A stretch of 38,603 nucleotides of DNA from a bacterium (GTDB taxonomy: Bacteria; UBA9089; JASEGY01). Every line of letters starts with the position of its first letter. The stretch's first letter is position 1. The stretch lies in NCBI GenBank assembly GCA_040753085.1, contig JBFMHI010000013.1, positions 1-38,603 on the forward strand, read 5' to 3'. The notes beneath the pieces are model-generated. The model made no database searches. It was not told the origin of the DNA and was given only the letters and a program-made list of their open reading frames with translations. The position numbers and the translations under genes were made by a program. Shown here piece after piece: positions 6,357 to 38,603 of the stretch.

Positions 6357-6531
6357 GTAACCGTTCAGCCACCAAGGCACTAAGACACGAAGGGGAAAAA
6401 AGTATGTGTCTTAGAGAGCAGTAGAGCCATAGAGCAGCCGTTCTGGAACTTTCAGAAAAGTCTTTAACTACTGCTCTGCTGCTCTACTGCTCTATCTTTG
6501 TGTCTTAGTGTCTTGGTGGCTGAACACTTAC
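6357..6531. mobile_element. 175-bp MITE with 8-bp target duplication
   Basis: The ends are 36-bp terminal inverted repeats differing at four positions. The left end reads GTAACCGTTCAGCCACCAAG, the right end, on the other strand, GTAAGTGTTCAGCCACCAAG. The inside is a further long hairpin (AGAGCAGTAGAG against CTCTACTGCTCT). Perfect 8-bp direct repeats CAACTTTT flank it (6349-6356 and 6532-6539). GTAA ends with an 8-bp duplication are typical of IS66-type transposition. The ends resemble those of the elements at 20825 and 22926. No coding capacity. Confidence 0.85.
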
Positions 6532-18298: not shown

Positions 18299-19227
18299 TA
18301 TTCCCTTAGCCTTTCGATCAATCGCTCCAGATCTCCCGCTGAGTAATACTCTATTTCGATCCGGCCCTTATCTCGGCCGGGCTTAATCCTTACTTTAGTG
18401 CCCAGAATTTCTGTCATCTCCTCTTCAATAGCCACTATATGGGGATCCCTCTCGACAGAGACGGTTTCACGTGAAACCTCAGGGCTGGTCAACTTTCTGA
18501 CCAATTCTTCTGTTTTTCGAACCGAGAGCTCCTGTTTGATGATCTTGTGAGATAGTTCCACCTGCATGGCCTCGTTAGCCAGACCCAGGATTGTTCTGGC
18601 ATGCCCCATCGAGAGCACCCCACCCGCCACCTGAGCCTGAATAACGACAGGTAGATTAAGAAGCCTCAGTGAATTGGTAATAGTAGAGCGGTTCTTGCCC
18701 ACCTTTTGGGCCAACTCCTCCTGGGTAAGGGTAAATTCATTGATCAGTTGTTGGTAGGCCTTCGCCTCATCAATAGGGTTCAATTCCTCTCGCTGGATGT
18801 TTTCAATCAGGGCGATCTCTAAGGCCTCTCCGTCCGAGACATCTTTGATCACCGCCGGAAGTTTTTCTAATCCAATCTCCTGGGCAGCCCGCAACCGTCT
18901 TTCACCAGCAATTAACTCATATCCCTCCCCCTTAGGACGAACCACCACCGGCTGGATAACCCCCTTCTCCCTCATTGAGGCAGCTAATTCCCTCAACTTG
19001 TCCAAATCAAACTCATGTCTGGGTTGATACGGATTGGGAGTTATCGCCGCTACCAGGATATCTCTGATCAGCCCACTTTCTCTTGGAGGCGCCGCCTCTC
19101 CTTCACTTTTCTCAGGAAGGGACTCCGTCGCCATCGGACTTTCTTTGGGATAAACACCCGTCTCCGCCTCCCTTTCCTCTAAAGGAGACTCAGCCTTCAC
19201 CTCACCTCTCCAAACGAAATCTTCCAT
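18298..19227 (-). CDS. parB: Chromosome partitioning protein ParB
   Basis: 309 residues. After an acidic, Pro-rich N-terminal extension (about 1-50), the ParB N-domain runs from about 55 to 145 and has the CTP-binding box GERRLRAAQEIG and ENIQREELNPIDEA. The HTH follows (LTQEELAQKVGKNRSTITNSLRLL). The C-terminal dimer domain ends LERLIERLRE. ParB loads on parS as a CTP-dependent clamp and recruits SMC. One parS-like palindrome lies in its own coding sequence (18463-18478). The usual parA neighbour is missing; rsmG lies upstream instead, separated by a miniature element (19327-19711) that may carry the promoter. It is co-transcribed with nadX and the Maf gene. Confidence 0.94.
   Translation of the reverse strand: MEDFVWRGEVKAESPLEEREAETGVYPKESPMATESLPEKSEGEAAPPRESGLIRDILVAAITPNPYQPRHEFDLDKLRELAASMREKGVIQPVVVRPKGEGYELIAGERRLRAAQEIGLEKLPAVIKDVSDGEALEIALIENIQREELNPIDEAKAYQQLINEFTLTQEELAQKVGKNRSTITNSLRLLNLPVVIQAQVAGGVLSMGHARTILGLANEAMQVELSHKIIKQELSVRKTEELVRKLTSPEVSRETVSVERDPHIVAIEEEMTEILGTKVRIKPGRDKGRIEIEYYSAGDLERLIERLRE
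18463..18478. promoter_or_regulatory. parS site within parB
   Basis: GGTTTCACGTGAAACC is a perfect palindrome that matches 14 of 16 positions of the parS consensus TGTTTCACGTGAAACA. A parS inside or beside parB is common. Confidence 0.85.
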
Positions 19228-19326
19228 TACCTTTTCGCCCCCCTTTCATAAGTTTATGGGTAACCGGTGTCTGGTAGTTTGGCCAACATCAGACTACCCA
19301 ACACCCGACTACCCCTTACCAGTTAT
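19228..19326. other. parB upstream region
   Basis: Non-coding. It holds a small inverted repeat (GGTGTCTGGTAGT with CAGACTACCCAACACC, about 19276-19309) and the left copy of the 8-bp duplication CCAGTTAT at 19319-19326. Confidence 0.5.
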
Positions 19327-19711
19327 GTATCTACTCAAAATCAAGTTAAAAAAGTAAGCTCATTACAGATTATAGTGCTATGGGTTAAGTTTCATCTCCT
19401 TTTGTCCTGACAGCGTCGGCATAAGAGCTTCCCCCCCTTGATGGGAGGGGTTAGGGGAGGGTGAAATAACAAAATCTGCTATATAATTACCTATAGGTTC
19501 TTGTCTCCTGAACTTAAACCCTTCCAACTGTTTTGATCTCAATTGTCTCCATAGTAACATCTCTGCACTGGTAGCTCTTTTTCTAAGGTTTTTAGCAAGA
19601 GTAATAATATTGCCCACCCATTTCACCCTCACCCTATCCCTCTCCCATCAAGGGTGAGGGAATTTTGCTTTGTCTCCCAACTAACTGCTTAACTTAGTTT
19701 TGAGTAGTTAC
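19327..19711. mobile_element. 385-bp element with a DUF559 remnant and 8-bp target duplication
   Basis: The ends are GTATCTACTCAAAATCAAG on the left and, on the other strand, GTAACTACTCAAAACTAAG on the right: 23-bp terminal repeats with three or so differences. Perfect direct repeats CCAGTTAT flank it (19319-19326 and 19712-19719). An inner inverted repeat (about 19438-19466 against 19619-19649, GATGGGAGGGG-type arms) brackets a truncated DUF559 frame. The first 79 bases are identical to 38352-38430. The right end supplies the stop codon of rsmG. The left end carries a TATAAT (19374-19369, minus strand) pointing at parB. Confidence 0.85.
19468..19632 (-). pseudogene. DUF559 (Vsr-like endonuclease) N-terminal remnant
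   Basis: The minus strand encodes LAKNLRKRATSAEMLLWRQL, then RSKQLEGFKFRRQEPIGNYIADFV, the standard beginning of DUF559 proteins (PD-(D/E)XK fold, related to very-short-patch repair endonucleases). It then breaks into repeat-encoded residues (ISPSPNPSHQGG). The metal-binding half of the domain is lost, so no nuclease activity is expected. It forms the inner part of the element at 19327-19711. Confidence 0.75.
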
Positions 19712-20436
19712 CCAGTTATTGGCCTCTTGTGAGAGATACCCGGTCGGCGGGGGTACCTGGTGGGGGTCTCCCCTACCTTTTCGATAAGCACCAGGTGCCT
19801 TTTTTGGTGAATAACCGGCAGAGTGATCTCCCTTATCTCTTCCAGTTTCCCGCCTAAAAGGCCTATGGCCCCTCTGGCCGCTTCGACTTCTGGTGTCACT
19901 TCTCTTCCCTTCATGGCCAGAAACCTCCCCCCTATTTGCAAAAAGGGGAAGGCCAGTTCCACCAGAACATTTAAGTGGCTAACCGCTCTGGAGAGAACAA
20001 GTTCATACCTGGCCCGCTGGGTTTTATCCCGGCCGTATTCTTCCGCCCGTCCCCATAATATCTTCACCTCAGGAAGTTCCAGCACACCCTGGAGATGTTC
20101 CAGAAACTCAATCCGCTTTCGCTTGGAATCCAAAAGAGTCAAATCTATCCGAGGTTGGTAAATAGCTAAGGGGATCCCTGGAAATCCTGCCCCCGTCCCC
20201 AGATCAAGGACTTTAAGCCCGGGGTGCAAAGAGACTGCCTTCAAGCAGGTCAGTGAGTCAATAAAGTGCTTAAGGACGACCTCCTCCGGTCTCTCGATGC
20301 GAGTTAGATTAATCCGCTTATTCCAACTATTTATCTCTTCCAGATAGAGGATAAACTGACCCACCTGATAATCGCTTAAGGCGCAATCCAATAAGGCGGC
20401 CGCTTCTTTTAACAGTCGAGTTGTCTTACTTATCAA
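19708..20436 (-). CDS. rsmG: 16S rRNA (guanine-N7) methyltransferase
   Basis: 242 residues. RsmG methylates G527 of 16S rRNA with S-adenosylmethionine. The family sequence WNKRINLTRI followed by HFIDSLTCL is present, as are the SAM motif VLDLGTGAGFPGIPLAI and LLDSKRKRIEFLEHL, VLSRAVSHL and FLAMKG. The last codons are shaped by the neighbouring element: CCAATAACTGG is followed by the element's GTAAC, so the final Gly codon and the TAA stop come from the inserted DNA. The natural C-terminus was therefore probably different, and the Arg/Pro-rich tail (about 225-242) may be read-through. It lies downstream of mnmG in the usual order. Confidence 0.94.
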   Translation of the reverse strand: MISKTTRLLKEAAALLDCALSDYQVGQFILYLEEINSWNKRINLTRIERPEEVVLKHFIDSLTCLKAVSLHPGLKVLDLGTGAGFPGIPLAIYQPRIDLTLLDSKRKRIEFLEHLQGVLELPEVKILWGRAEEYGRDKTQRARYELVLSRAVSHLNVLVELAFPFLQIGGRFLAMKGREVTPEVEAARGAIGLLGGKLEEIREITLPVIHQKRHLVLIEKVGETPTRYPRRPGISHKRPITG

Positions 20437-20508
20437 CGGAGAATACTCCCTTTATACCACAGGCGGCCGGTGAAGTCAAGCATAAAAACGGGTTAAGTAG
20501 TTAAAAAC

Positions 20509-20742
20509 TTAGGGAAGATGCGCTTCTATCAGCCTCTCCAGTCTATTCCGGTAAATGAGATCGAAGAGATAACCCTTCTCCGGAAAGAGGGTCACGGTCC
20601 ATTTACGGCATCCTTCGATTAGTCTCTCTGCTTCAGGGCGGCTTAGGCTGCCTGACTTGATAGTCGCCCCGGCCAGATCGACCATTATCCGTAATCTTCG
20701 AACCCGCTTATCCTCTTCCAGGATTTCTTCGGCCAGGTTCAT
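20509..20742 (-). CDS. Conserved hypothetical protein, 77 residues
   Basis: The start at 20742 has a strong AAAGGAGG site; the in-frame start at 20814 does not. The protein is helical: NLAEEILEEDKRVRRLRIMV, DLAGATIKSGSLSRPEAERL, IEGCRKWTVTLFPEKGYLFD and LIYRNRLERLIEAHLP. Similar short proteins with 'RPEAE.L....R..AL.LFP.K...FDLIY..R..R' are, as far as I recall, widespread hypotheticals in anaerobic bacteria; no function is known to me. It lies between mnmG and rsmG on the same strand and is probably in the same transcript. Confidence 0.7.
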   Translation of the reverse strand: MNLAEEILEEDKRVRRLRIMVDLAGATIKSGSLSRPEAERLIEGCRKWTVTLFPEKGYLFDLIYRNRLERLIEAHLP

Positions 20743-20824
20743 TTCTTCCTCCTTTCCCCTCACGCCGCCTATCGCCGGCTGACCTCGGTGAATCTTTGGC
20801 ATCGGCTCGCTCATAATAGCCCAT

Positions 20825-20916
20825 GTAATCGTTCACCACAGAGACACTGAGACACGGAGAATGATTTTAGATTTTTCTCAATGTCTCTGTGTCTCCGTGG
20901 TGAGGTGAACGGTTAC
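20825..20916. mobile_element. 92-bp MITE, GTAAYCGTTCA family
   Basis: Almost the whole element is a hairpin. Left end GTAATCGTTCACCACAGAGA, right end on the other strand GTAACCGTTCACCTCACCAC. Arms built of ACAGAGACACTGAGACACGG follow. Flanks AGCCCAT and AGCTCAT match at 6 of 7 positions, a possible decayed target duplication. It looks like an internally deleted copy of the element at 22926-23184, with which it shares both ends. It lies just after the mnmG stop codon. Confidence 0.75.
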
Positions 20917-20924
20917 AGCTCATC

Positions 20925-22811
20925 TTATCTTATCCTACCAGAGATCCCTGCCTCGACTTTTCCCCGGCGAAGGCGTTCCAGATAGACCAGCAGGACCGAG
21001 ATATCGGCTGAACGCAGACCCGGGATGCGGACGGCCTGCCCCAGGGAGATAGGTCTTATTCGGCTCATCTTTTCTCTGCCTTCATAAGAAAGCCCCCCTA
21101 TCTGATCATAGTCAAGATCAGGCGGAATCAGCCTACCTTCCAATTTTTTAAATCTCTCCACCTGAACCATCTGGCGGTTGATGTAACCTTCATACTTGAT
21201 CCTGGTCTCCACCTCGGTCCAAACCCGAGCTGAAAGATGCCGACCATTTTGACCGATCTTATCCAGATCCTGATAGGCTACCTCCGGTCGCCGAAGGAGT
21301 TGAAGGAGGTTAATAGGCTCCTTCAACTCTACCCCCAGAGGCCTTACTTCTCCAGGGTTAACCCGCGTACCGTTAAGCCTGATTATTTCCTCTTTCACCT
21401 GAGCCTCTTTTTCCTGAAGGCCGTGATAGCTTTCCTCTGAAATCAGCCCAAATCTGTAGCCGTAGGGCATCAATCGGGTATCGGCATTGTCCTGGCGAAG
21501 CAGAAGTCGGTATTCGGCCCGGGAGGTGAACATGCGGTAGGGTTCGCTCACCCCTCGGGTAACCAGGTCGTCGATAAGGACACCGATATAGGCCTCGGAT
21601 CTATCCAGAATAAAAGGCACCTGGCCCCTCAGTTTTAAAACGGCATTGATGCCGGCCATAATTCCCTGGGCGCCTGCCTCCTCATAGCCGGAGGTCCCAT
21701 TTATCTGCCCGGCAAAATAAAGGTTCTCGATTAATTTTGTCTCCAGGGTGGGCTTGATCTGGGTAGGTGGGGCAAAGTCATATTCGATGGCATAACCCGG
21801 CCTAATCATTCTGGCCTCCTCTAAGCCAGGGATGGTCTTAAGAAACCTGATCTGCACATCTTCCGGCAGGCTGGTGGCCAGGCCATTGGCATAGACCTCG
21901 GTGGTCTCCCTCCCTTCCGGTTCCAGATAGATCTGATGTCTCTCCTTTTCCGCGAACCGCACTACCTTATCTTCTATGGAAGGACAGTATCGTGGTCCCA
22001 CTCCCTTGATTCGGCCGGCATAAAGAGGCGAACGATCCAGGTTTTCTCGAATAAGCTGATGGGTCTTGGGGTTGGTATAGGTAATAAAACAGGACACCTG
22101 CACCTGGGTGATCCGCCCGGTCTTATGGGAAAAGGGCACCGGCGGATCATCCCCTGGTTGGGCCTGGAGCTTAGAGTAATCGATGGTGGTACCATCAATT
22201 CTGGGGGGGGTGCCTGTCTTGAGTCGCCCGATTTCAAATCCCAGCTCCTTCAAATTATCAGAGAGACCCACCGCTGGCAACTCCCCCCCTCGTCCGCCAG
22301 GGAAAGATATCTCTCCGATATGGATCAAACCGTTGAGGAAGGTCCCGGTAGTCAGGATAACGGCCTTAGCCTTATACCGCAGGCCGGTCTGAGAGACTGC
22401 CCCCACTACCTGCCCCTTATCCGTTAAGATCCTGGTAGTCATAGCCTGGACCACATCCAGCCCCGCCTGCCCCTCCAGAACCTGCCTCATAGCGAACTGA
22501 TACCTTTTTTTGTCTGCCTGGGCCCGGGGCGAGTGGACCGCCGGTCCCTTTTTGGTATTAAGCATCCGGAACTGTATCCCGGTCCGATCGATATTCCGCC
22601 CCATCTCACCACCCAGGGCATCGATCTCCTTGACTAATTGCCCCTTGGCCAGGCCACCAATGGCTGGATTACAGGACATCTGGGCAATGGTATCCAAATT
22701 CAGGGTGAGAAGCAGGGTGGCTGCCCCCATGCGGGCCGAGGCCAGGGCCGCCTCACAACCGGCATGCCCAGCCCCAACTACGATTAAGTCATATTCCTTA
22801 AAGTAATACAT
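20925..22811 (-). CDS. mnmG: tRNA uridine-5-carboxymethylaminomethyl modification enzyme MnmG
   Basis: 628 residues from the ATG at 22811, preceded by GGAGAG. MnmG with MnmE installs the (carboxymethyl)aminomethyl group at U34 of some tRNAs, using FAD, NADH and methylene-THF. The FAD motif [21 protein letters not shown] opens the protein, [22 protein letters not shown] carries the conserved Cys, and GLYFAG-type and [10 protein letters not shown] regions plus a helical C-terminal domain follow. The open frame extends to 22898 but that stretch runs through a parS site and is unlikely to be coding. It lies between mnmE and the 77-residue gene, in the standard gid/rsmG/par cluster. Confidence 0.95.
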
Positions 22812-22897
22812 TAAGTCTCTCCAAATAGCGGCCATTGACCGCTGGTGGCCATTGGCCCGCGTCGTAAGTGTTTGCCAGACAAGGCCCTCCCTCTTCA

Positions 22898-22913
22898 TGT
22901 TTCACGTGAAACA
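22898..22913. promoter_or_regulatory. Consensus parS site upstream of mnmG
   Basis: TGTTTCACGTGAAACA is an exact match to the bacterial parS consensus and is part of a longer perfect 26-bp palindrome (22893-22918). This should be the strongest ParB loading site of the window. Confidence 0.95.
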
Positions 22914-22925
22914 TGAAGTCCCCCT

Positions 22926-23184
22926 GTAATCGTTCACCACAGAGACACTGAGACACGGAGAATGATTTTAGAAAAAAGCACTTACAGGGCAAACAATTGG
23001 GTCAGCAATATGAAGTTTATAGGCATTTAGGCTCTGGCTTATTAGAGTCAGCCTACGAAGAATGCCTTTGTCATGAACTCTATTTGCGTGGTCTAAATTT
23101 TGAACGACAAAGACCTCATTAAGAGACTTGTCCTTTAGATTTTTCTCAGTGTCTCTGTGTCTCCGTGGTGAGGTGAACGGTTAC
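22926..23184. mobile_element. 259-bp element with a GxxExxY remnant and 8-bp target duplication
   Basis: The left end is GTAATCGTTCACCACAGAGA, the right end in reverse complement GTAACCGTTCACCTCACCAC; the arms continue with GACACTGAGACACGGAG-type sequence. Perfect direct repeats GTCCCCCT flank the element (22918-22925 and 23185-23192). The inside carries part of a GxxExxY gene. The duplication touches the parS site, so the insertion landed directly between two parS-like sequences. It belongs to the same family as 20825-20916 and, by its ends, 6357-6531. Confidence 0.85.
22980..23122 (+). pseudogene. GxxExxY protein remnant
   Basis: The plus strand encodes EVYRHLGSGLLESAYEECLC followed by HELYLRGLNFERQRPH and a stop. 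GLLESAY is the G..E..Y motif that names the family, a group of small proteins related to PD-(D/E)XK nucleases. Both the N-terminal helix and everything after the ERQ strand are missing, and no start codon is in place. It is a degraded cargo of the surrounding element. Confidence 0.75.
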
Positions 23185-23195
23185 GTCCCCCTTAA

Positions 23196-23211
23196 TGTTC
23201 CCCGTGAAACC
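23196..23211. promoter_or_regulatory. Degenerate parS-like site
   Basis: TGTTCCCCGTGAAACC matches the parS consensus at 13 of 16 positions, with a good right half. It lies 285 bases from the consensus site and next to mnmE. Binding would be weak. Confidence 0.5.
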
Positions 23212-23240
23212 CTAAGGGAGGCAGGCTTAGCCTAGACGAG

Positions 23241-24617
23241 TTATTTACCGATACAGAAGTTGGCGAAGATACGATCCAGGATATCTTCGGTAACCGTTTC
23301 TCCTGAGATAAGCGCGACCTGGTCGGCAGCCTCCCTGAGGTCAAGGGCAATAAGTTCTGGCGATCCCCTGTCGGCCACTGTCCTGGAGGCTTCCTTCAAG
23401 CTCCTGGCCGCCGAGGCCAGGGCCTGTTGGTGGCGAAGATTACTGACCATCAGCCCCTCGCCGACCACTATTTCACCGCCCAGGACGGTCCGGGCCACAG
23501 CCTCCCTTAGATCATCCAGGCCGGTCCGGTGGATAGCCGAGATATGGGTTGATCTATGGTTAGGCAGTAATTTCTCTAACTCCTCAACCTCGATCAGGCG
23601 GGGGCAGTCACTTTTATTTAAAACGACGATTCCCTTTCGCCCTTTAACCTGGGAGATGATCTCTTTATCCTCGAGGGTAAGTCGAGTGGAGGCGTCCAGG
23701 ACAAGGAGGATTAGATCGGCCTGCTGGAGGGATCTTTTGGTTCTCCGCAGTCCCTCTTCTTCCACCATATCTCCGACGGGGCGCAATCCAGCGGTGTCAA
23801 TGATCCTTAAGGGGATACCCTTAAGATTTATTATCTCTTCAATGGTATCCCGGGTGGTACCAGGGATGGGGGTAACTATGGCCCGGTCTTCCCCCAGGAG
23901 GGCGTTTAGGAGGCTTGATTTTCCGACATTAGGCCGGCCGACAATAACCGTGGCCAATCCTTCTCGAATAATCCGGCCGCCTTTGGCTGTTTCCACCAGC
24001 TTAATCAACCGTTTTTGGGCCGTCATTATCCTTTCGGAAAGTTCTGATTCCTTCAGAAAGTCGAGGTCTTCCTCAGGAAAGTCTATGGAGGCCTCCACCT
24101 CAGCCAGGAGGCTGATTAATTCCTCCCTAATAGATGAGACTTCCCGGAAAAGATCGCCTTCCAGGTGGTGAAGGGCGATCTTGGCGCCGGCCTCGGTCTG
24201 GGCCCGAATAAGATCAATGACGGCCTCCGCCTGGCTCAGGTCTATGCGGCCATTTAAAAAGGCACGCCGGGTGAACTCCCCTGGTTCAGCCAAGCGTGCC
24301 CCCAATCTTAAGGTTAATTCCAGGATCGATCTTAAGGGAATAATCCCTCCATGTCCGTTGATTTCCACCACGTCTTCTCGGGTATAGGTTTGTGGCGCCC
24401 GCATCACCGTGAGAAGAACCTCATCCAGGCTTTTTTTGTTTAAGGGATCTATGATTCGGCCGTAGTGAATGGTGTGAGAGGGGAAACGAGAAACCCTTTC
24501 TGGGCCGTGGAATATCTCTTCGGCGATAGCAATGGCCTGGGGACCGCTTAAACGAACGATGCCGATGCCTCCCTCCCCTAAGGCCGTAGAGATAGCTACA
24601 ATGGTATCATCAAACAT
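23241..24617 (-). CDS. mnmE: tRNA modification GTPase MnmE
   Basis: 458 residues. MnmE is the GTPase and tetrahydrofolate-binding partner of MnmG in wobble uridine modification. The N-terminal domain begins DDTIVAISTALGEGGIGIVR. The G domain (about 220-370) has G1 GRPNVGKSSLLNALLG, G2/G3 TPIPGTTRDT and DTAGLR, and G4 NKSD. The C-terminus is the invariant FCIGK whose Cys is essential in the family. It starts in the last base of jag (TAATG), so translation is coupled. The order jag-mnmE-mnmG is the standard one, here split from mnmG by 430 bases of parS and mobile element. Confidence 0.96.
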   Translation of the reverse strand: MFDDTIVAISTALGEGGIGIVRLSGPQAIAIAEEIFHGPERVSRFPSHTIHYGRIIDPLNKKSLDEVLLTVMRAPQTYTREDVVEINGHGGIIPLRSILELTLRLGARLAEPGEFTRRAFLNGRIDLSQAEAVIDLIRAQTEAGAKIALHHLEGDLFREVSSIREELISLLAEVEASIDFPEEDLDFLKESELSERIMTAQKRLIKLVETAKGGRIIREGLATVIVGRPNVGKSSLLNALLGEDRAIVTPIPGTTRDTIEEIINLKGIPLRIIDTAGLRPVGDMVEEEGLRRTKRSLQQADLILLVLDASTRLTLEDKEIISQVKGRKGIVVLNKSDCPRLIEVEELEKLLPNHRSTHISAIHRTGLDDLREAVARTVLGGEIVVGEGLMVSNLRHQQALASAARSLKEASRTVADRGSPELIALDLREAADQVALISGETVTEDILDRIFANFCIGK

Positions 24618-38351: not shown

Positions 38352-38603
38352 GTATCTACTCAAAATCAAGTTAAAAAAGTAAGCTCATTACAGATTATAG
38401 TGCTATGGGTTAAGTTTCATCTCCTTTTGTACCGACGACAGCGTTGGCATAAGAGCTTCCCCTCCCTTGATGGGAGGGGTTAGGGGAGGGTGAAATAAAC
38501 AACCCTCTCTTATTGTTGCTAATACCCCATCTATATTTCTTAATATAAGGTTTTTAGCAAGAGTAATAATATTGCCCGCCAATTTCACCCTCACCCTATC
38601 CCT
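38352..38603. mobile_element. Second copy of the DUF559-type element, cut by the window end
   Basis: The first 79 bases (38352-38430) are identical to 19327-19405. The GATGGGAGGGG inner arm follows. The DUF559 part is reduced to MRVKLAGNIITLAKNL before a different stretch, so this copy has lost most of the gene. The minus-strand TATAAT at 38399-38394 points toward uspA. The right end and target duplication lie outside the window. Confidence 0.8.

Follow-up and report, generated by a model that had tools for sequence, protein, structure and literature searches.

Small nuclease-like genes bounded by family-specific inverted repeats and nested within putative IS66-type miniature elements

How do small nuclease-like genes that have no transposase beside them come to be scattered through a genome? 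The question is raised by a contig of a bacterium (GTDB lineage Bacteria; UBA9089; JASEGY01) in GenBank assembly GCA_040753085.1 (contig JBFMHI010000013.1), of which we analyzed positions 1 to 38,603, here called the window. Between positions 19,327 and 23,184 lie two short elements, one wrapping the remnant of a DUF559 gene and the other the remnant of a GxxExxY gene. A preliminary description had read both genes as cargo of simple transposons and had raised a link between nuclease and transposition. We favor, with moderate confidence, a two-layered explanation in which the transposon ends would form an outer layer only, and the inner unit would be a one-gene mobile nuclease together with its own repeat. 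Most of the genomes used for comparison are metagenome assemblies.

The outer layer is delimited by the following features, numbered as in the window.

19319..19326, + strand: left 8-bp copy of the element 1 target duplication, CCAGTTAT
19327..19711, unstranded: element 1, a putative IS66-type miniature inverted-repeat transposable element (MITE) with a DUF559 unit; 385 bp, ends GTATCTACTCAAAA...TTTTGAGTAGTTAC, inverted arms and exact 8-bp duplication
19712..19719, + strand: right 8-bp copy of the element 1 target duplication, CCAGTTAT
22918..22925, + strand: left 8-bp copy of the element 2 target duplication, GTCCCCCT
22926..23184, unstranded: element 2, a putative IS66-type MITE with a GxxExxY unit; 259 bp, ends GTAATCGTTCACC...GGTGAACGGTTAC, inverted ends and 8-bp duplication
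23185..23192, + strand: right 8-bp copy of the element 2 target duplication, GTCCCCCT

The arms of element 1 (GTATCTACTCAAAA and GTAACTACTCAAAA) are 23 nt long, 87% complementary, and start with GTATC and GTAAC; those of element 2 are GTAATCGTTCACC and GTAACCGTTCACC, and the whole of element 2 is absent from the orthologous gidA-mnmE spacer of a sister species. With exact duplications and inverted GTA-type ends around both remnants, the boundaries given in the preliminary description hold, as does its statement, for the window's genome, that the nuclease remnant is the only gene inside each transposase-free element. Such ends occur far beyond chance: the motif GTAAYCGTTCACC has 456 sites in the window's genome, with one mismatch allowed, versus 9 for the reversed control. 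Among 112 end pairs from loci of this phylum, exact direct repeats of 8 bp flanked 15, and repeats of any other length from 5 to 12 bp flanked none or one. The inverted ends of this layer are of the GTAA type, with GTAT in some copies, and they enclose varied inner contents, array doublets (described below) among them.

GTAA ends combined with 8-bp duplications suggest the IS66 family. In related genomes, an IS66-type transposase gene broken by stops lies inside a 1563-bp element with ends GTAACCGTTCAGGTA (G006), a truncated one lies inside a 1214-bp element with ends GTAACTATTCAGCA (G015), and a fragment lies between GTAACCGTTCAC and GTAATCGTTCAC (G001); because IS66-family transposase genes sit between like ends, we assign the ends to this type. 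Comparison at this level supports the view that the window elements are probably IS66-type MITEs holding both nuclease genes as nested cargo. They share with known IS66-family MITEs, or mobile insertion cassettes, the GTAA-type ends, the 8-bp duplication, a transposase-free interior, and, in relatives, decayed IS66 transposase genes between like ends; they differ in that the likeness covers the outer layer only and, in our sample, was met only in this phylum. A further small element nested in a GxxExxY-type MITE at locus L006 has ends CGACCTGTG..CACAGGTCG and an 8-bp duplication, AATGATTT; as CGACCTGTGCGGTTAG was found again in several loci, it may represent another MITE family.

Taken by themselves, these ends, duplications, and transposase genes in relatives would suit pure hitch-hiking, in which an IS66-type transposase acts in trans on MITEs that carry the nuclease genes as passengers, and the nucleases themselves contribute nothing to mobility. 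It also fits that the MITEs have spread to hundreds of end sites although every GxxExxY copy in the window's genome is a fragment. As a general account, however, hitch-hiking is contradicted by the flanks of the genes elsewhere: GTAA-type ends on both sides were found at 0 of 77 usable GxxExxY loci from many other phyla, archaea included, while the inner repeats persist there. The GTAA ends were consequently rejected as the general vehicle of both genes. Moreover, each nuclease family has repeats of its own, other genes are hardly ever found within array pairs, and the inner units insert on their own (all three described below), and we regard hitch-hiking as unlikely. The proposal that solo nucleases travel as transposon cargo therefore stands for the window's genome, and agrees with the transposase between like ends in relatives, but fails as a rule. 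Similarly, the proposed connection between nuclease and mobility does not extend to the GTAA transposon; because inverted repeats specific to each family regularly adjoin these genes, the apparent link is to those inner repeats.

For GxxExxY, the inner layer of element 2 consists of the following.

22938..22960, + strand: left triple array, CACAGAGA-CACTGAGA-CACGGAG
22994..23116, + strand: GxxExxY fragment, PF13366 positions 7-47 of 117, with the C-terminal half including the D...ExK site missing
23145..23167, - strand: right triple array, inverted, CACGGAGA-CACAGAGA-CACTGAG

Copies related to this fragment match TIGR04256. All 21 PF13366 matches in the window's genome are partial, nearly all being GxxExxY remnants, and the end families that bear such fragments have the inner triple repeat in common. 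In related genomes, nearly all intact GxxExxY genes are bounded by inverted repeats of short units. Across the 77 loci, inward-facing CAC-nRAG arrays of at least two units stood on both sides of the gene in 57 (1 of 683 matched control windows), and arrays of at least three units in 38 (0 of 683); an inverted-repeat score of at least 28 was reached in 76% of cases versus 1% elsewhere in the same loci. An array comprises two to four units of about 9 bp, mostly spaced 8-10 bp apart, and the left and right arrays of one element use the same spacing in 37 of 40 cases (24% expected). Elements with more similar arrays also tend to encode more similar proteins (Mantel r 0.27, p 0.0005), and within the phylum per-genome array counts are higher where an intact GxxExxY gene is present (p=0.004). 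GxxExxY is also close to the exclusive content of such pairs, occupying 35 of 37 gene-sized ones at loci fetched largely for this gene. In G001, where the count was made without selecting loci for GxxExxY, 27 of the 28 inward array pairs listed are gene-free (84-187 bp) and the sole gene-sized pair holds GxxExxY.

Several further observations concern these arrays. G001 has about 11 copies of a 171-bp array doublet (e.g. L312, L316), and the three inspected lie within a larger repeat with flanks CAATT..ATTATGACATTTTTACCGC. At L130 (686-1217), the arrays beside the GxxExxY gene also enclose a different open reading frame with a PDIE..VEAKGE stretch, which resembles another PD-(D/E)XK protein and has no Pfam match. 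The left array is often in frame with the GxxExxY gene, read as HRDTETQR-like peptides (L087, L092, L105, L135, and others), and the annotated N-termini of the family are therefore probably often too long.

The protein itself would qualify as a PD-(D/E)XK nuclease by its conserved D...ExK site and its predicted fold. Residues D67, E77, and K79 are invariant in 40 aligned diverse members, and the predicted model (pLDDT 95) has Cas4 SSO0001 and lambda exonuclease as its nearest folds at moderate scores, the match to Cas4 having a probability of 0.87-0.99 but an E value above 0.001. No solved structure for GxxExxY was found by sequence, and no relatives of the query were found among viral contigs. 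A reading of the genes as defense systems was rejected, as PADLOC did not match GxxExxY at all and matched DUF559 only weakly and in part.

DUF559 in element 1 is likewise a remnant between two inverted repeats, which are of a different kind.

19431..19461, + strand: inverted, diverged triplex-motif-like repeat by the 3' end of the DUF559 fragment, CCCCCCCTTGATGGGAGGGGTTAGGGGAGGG
19465..19602, - strand: DUF559 fragment, PF04480, E=4e-16, model positions 5-50 of 109, C-terminal half missing
19626..19660, - strand: BoxC/triplex-motif repeat by the 5' end of the fragment, CCCTCACCC-TTGAT-GGGAGAGGG-ATA-GGGTGAGGG; consensus in PMC4666352

The DUF559 family is related to Vsr (PMC1189080), and its four matches in the window's genome are all partial. 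Solo DUF559 genes are flanked by inverted repeats made of a hairpin and a G-rich tail, with an inverted-repeat score of at least 28 in 72% of 29 loci (controls 0 of 206); under a stricter, triplex-like definition, 11 of 28 genes had repeats on both sides and another 10 had them on one side (controls 0 of 182). The GC-rich form of this repeat, of which the window copy at 19626-19660 is an example, agrees with the published consensus of the BoxC/PIT/triplex motif (TM) repeat, CCCTCNCCC-N3-6-GGGNGAGGG-N3-GGGNGAGGG (Holder et al. 2015, PMC4666352). That repeat was published without an associated mobility gene, no mobility functions ever having been found near it according to its authors (PMC4666352), whereas here it is paired with a nuclease family. 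Consensus matches, with loop and spacer slightly widened, occur in 14 of 50 genomes, and copies flank DUF559 in G039 and G051; all five genomes with at least 10 exact TMs are DUF559-positive, versus 16 of 50 overall (p=0.002). In Escherichia coli K-12, the DUF559 gene ycjD lies at 1351407-1351760, about 170 bp from published TM copy no. 9 at 1351204-1351239 (PMC4666352), and a decayed copy lies at the 3' end of the gene. ycjD was rejected as a clean two-sided unit, since triplex-motif repeats stand on its 3' side only and none on the 5' side. In L204, L205, L207, and L210, DUF559 forms part of a long open frame (632-1383 aa), which points to fusion with larger proteins; of the three whose flanks could be used, two still lie near strong inverted repeats. 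A probable second DUF559-type element in the window (38352-38603) starts at about 38352 (GTATCTACTCA), has a repeat at 38459-38485, and runs past the contig end.

Repeats so close to a gene might instead be regulatory or structural parts of it (terminators, RNA hairpins, or operator sites), spread with it by ordinary horizontal transfer and homologous recombination. Their position within tens of bases of the reading frame would agree with this, as would the hairpin and intrastrand triplex that the E. coli triplex motif forms in vitro (PMC4666352). Against it stand the many gene-free doublets at unrelated sites, inspected empty sites that offer no repeat to recombine with, and the finding that PIT elements have neither promoter nor terminator activity (PMC4666352). 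For an RNA family, Rfam returned no match within 18800-23800. We judge this alternative very improbable.

Evidence of movement comes from sites at which a unit is present in one genome and missing in a relative. In Methylotenera, a GxxExxY unit sits between trpE-like and trpG-like genes (names assigned by eye from the encoded ends) in one genome and is absent from its congeners. The query region was matched in 51 of 52 genomes of the genus, in many of which the flanks lie tens of bases apart, and 17 aligned empty alleles lack the element. At the site itself, the three closest of these (at least one flank about 95-97% identical) carry no repeat, and the joints of the unit show no 8-bp duplication. 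For DUF559, G046 has a unit of about 425 bp that its congener G121 lacks, both flank matches abutting in the latter; flank identity is about 79%, so the exact joint is uncertain. These sites show that gene-repeat units of both families have inserted into repeat-free DNA, without an 8-bp duplication. The boundaries of the units are also plain from comparison among copies, whose homology is limited to about 440-490 bp, with diverged sequence outside the repeats; L063 and L085 are 93% identical and come from different families of the phylum. G046 and G121 each carry many DUF559-repeat doublets in two orientations, resembling REPINs.

The same sites bear on a homing-like selfish gene, whose nuclease would cut gene-free alleles at pre-existing repeat doublets, with repair then copying the gene into them. 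PMC9403480 assigns DUF559 to the EDxHD family of homing endonucleases, its relative with a solved structure, 3HRL, is called an endonuclease-like protein, and gene-free doublets look like vacant sites. Neither examined empty site contains a doublet, so there was no insertion into a pre-existing repeat there. The strict model, insertion into a cognate target site, was rejected on these two sites, and homing in general appears quite improbable.

In the two-layered explanation, the outer layer would comprise short non-autonomous MITEs with GTAACYRYTCAG-like IS66-type ends and an 8-bp duplication, on which an IS66-family transposase would act in trans. In the inner layer, a family-specific repeat would occur as two inverted copies with a small PD-(D/E)XK nuclease gene between them, the repeat being the CAC-nRAG array for GxxExxY and, for DUF559, a hairpin plus G tail whose GC-rich form is the BoxC/PIT/triplex motif. 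Such a unit would enter repeat-free sites without evident target duplication, and the gene-free doublets would be its non-autonomous derivatives. Most likely the nuclease recognizes its own repeat, perhaps as a folded single strand in the case of DUF559, and cuts or nicks there, after which host replication or repair would copy or insert the repeat-bounded stretch. The comparisons support the unit and its movement; we infer that the nuclease itself drives that movement. A broader claim is that GxxExxY and DUF559 are the mobility enzymes of two very widespread prokaryotic classes of orphan repeats (CAC-nRAG and BoxC-type), forming one-gene, transposase-free elements without target duplication; this we put forward tentatively, at somewhat less than even chances.

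Several points weigh against this explanation. An IS66 transposase was not found in the window's own assembly, and the transposase-bearing copies in related genomes, all decayed, have no exact 8-bp duplication, because of which the autonomous IS66 element is supported rather than proven. The 80 cross-phylum GxxExxY loci were chosen by two conserved peptides and similarity, and one subfamily dominates them. In each family, about a quarter of the genes lack a clear pair of repeats, the form of the DUF559 repeat differs between genomes, and an exact TM match is absent in 8 of the 16 DUF559-positive genomes. Co-occurrence of gene and array could reflect long co-inheritance instead of recognition, and host functions are needed for insertion because a nuclease alone cannot join DNA.

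The closest known parallel is the REPtron (TnpA_REP/RAYT with REP/REPIN repeats). In tnpA_REP the gene is usually single-copy and gives no evidence of mobility (PMC8266576), whereas GxxExxY is multi-copy and visibly mobile. Common to both are a short family-specific repeat that stands inverted on either side of the gene, dispersed repeats and gene-free inverted doublets in the genome, and no evident target duplication; the units here differ in encoding a PD-(D/E)XK nuclease (Pfam PDDEXK_3, DUF559) rather than an HUH (Y1) tyrosine transposase. A likeness also exists to the Rpn (recombination-promoting) nucleases, small multi-copy PD-(D/E)XK proteins linked to DNA transfer; these belong to another family than GxxExxY and DUF559, and we know of no cognate inverted repeats for them. 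In the open-access literature, we found no paper linking CAC-nRAG or BoxC-type repeats with a GxxExxY, DUF559, or ycjD gene.

Two other elements in the window were not on the list of the preliminary description.

6357..6531, unstranded: element with GTAAC ends around an inverted CAC-nAAG array pair; 175 bp, 8-bp duplication CAACTTTT
20825..20916, unstranded: gene-free copy of the GxxExxY-type element (array doublet within GTAAY ends); 92 bp, imperfect duplication

The window also contains an origin-type gene cluster (parB, gidB, gidA, mnmE, and jag), and a parS-like site in 22890-22925, TGTTTCACGTGAAACAT, adjoins element 2 in the gidA-mnmE spacer.

No role is known for the abundant families GxxExxY and DUF559, and their pairing with repeats gives both nucleases and repeats a testable function. 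The BoxC/PIT repeats, familiar since the 1990s, have so far lacked an origin; a candidate origin is offered here, E. coli BoxC included. Since ycjD and BoxC are both present in E. coli K-12, the reading can be tested in a standard laboratory strain. If true, these units would be a PD-(D/E)XK counterpart to the REP/RAYT system, and they could account for a large part of the short repeats scattered through environmental genomes.

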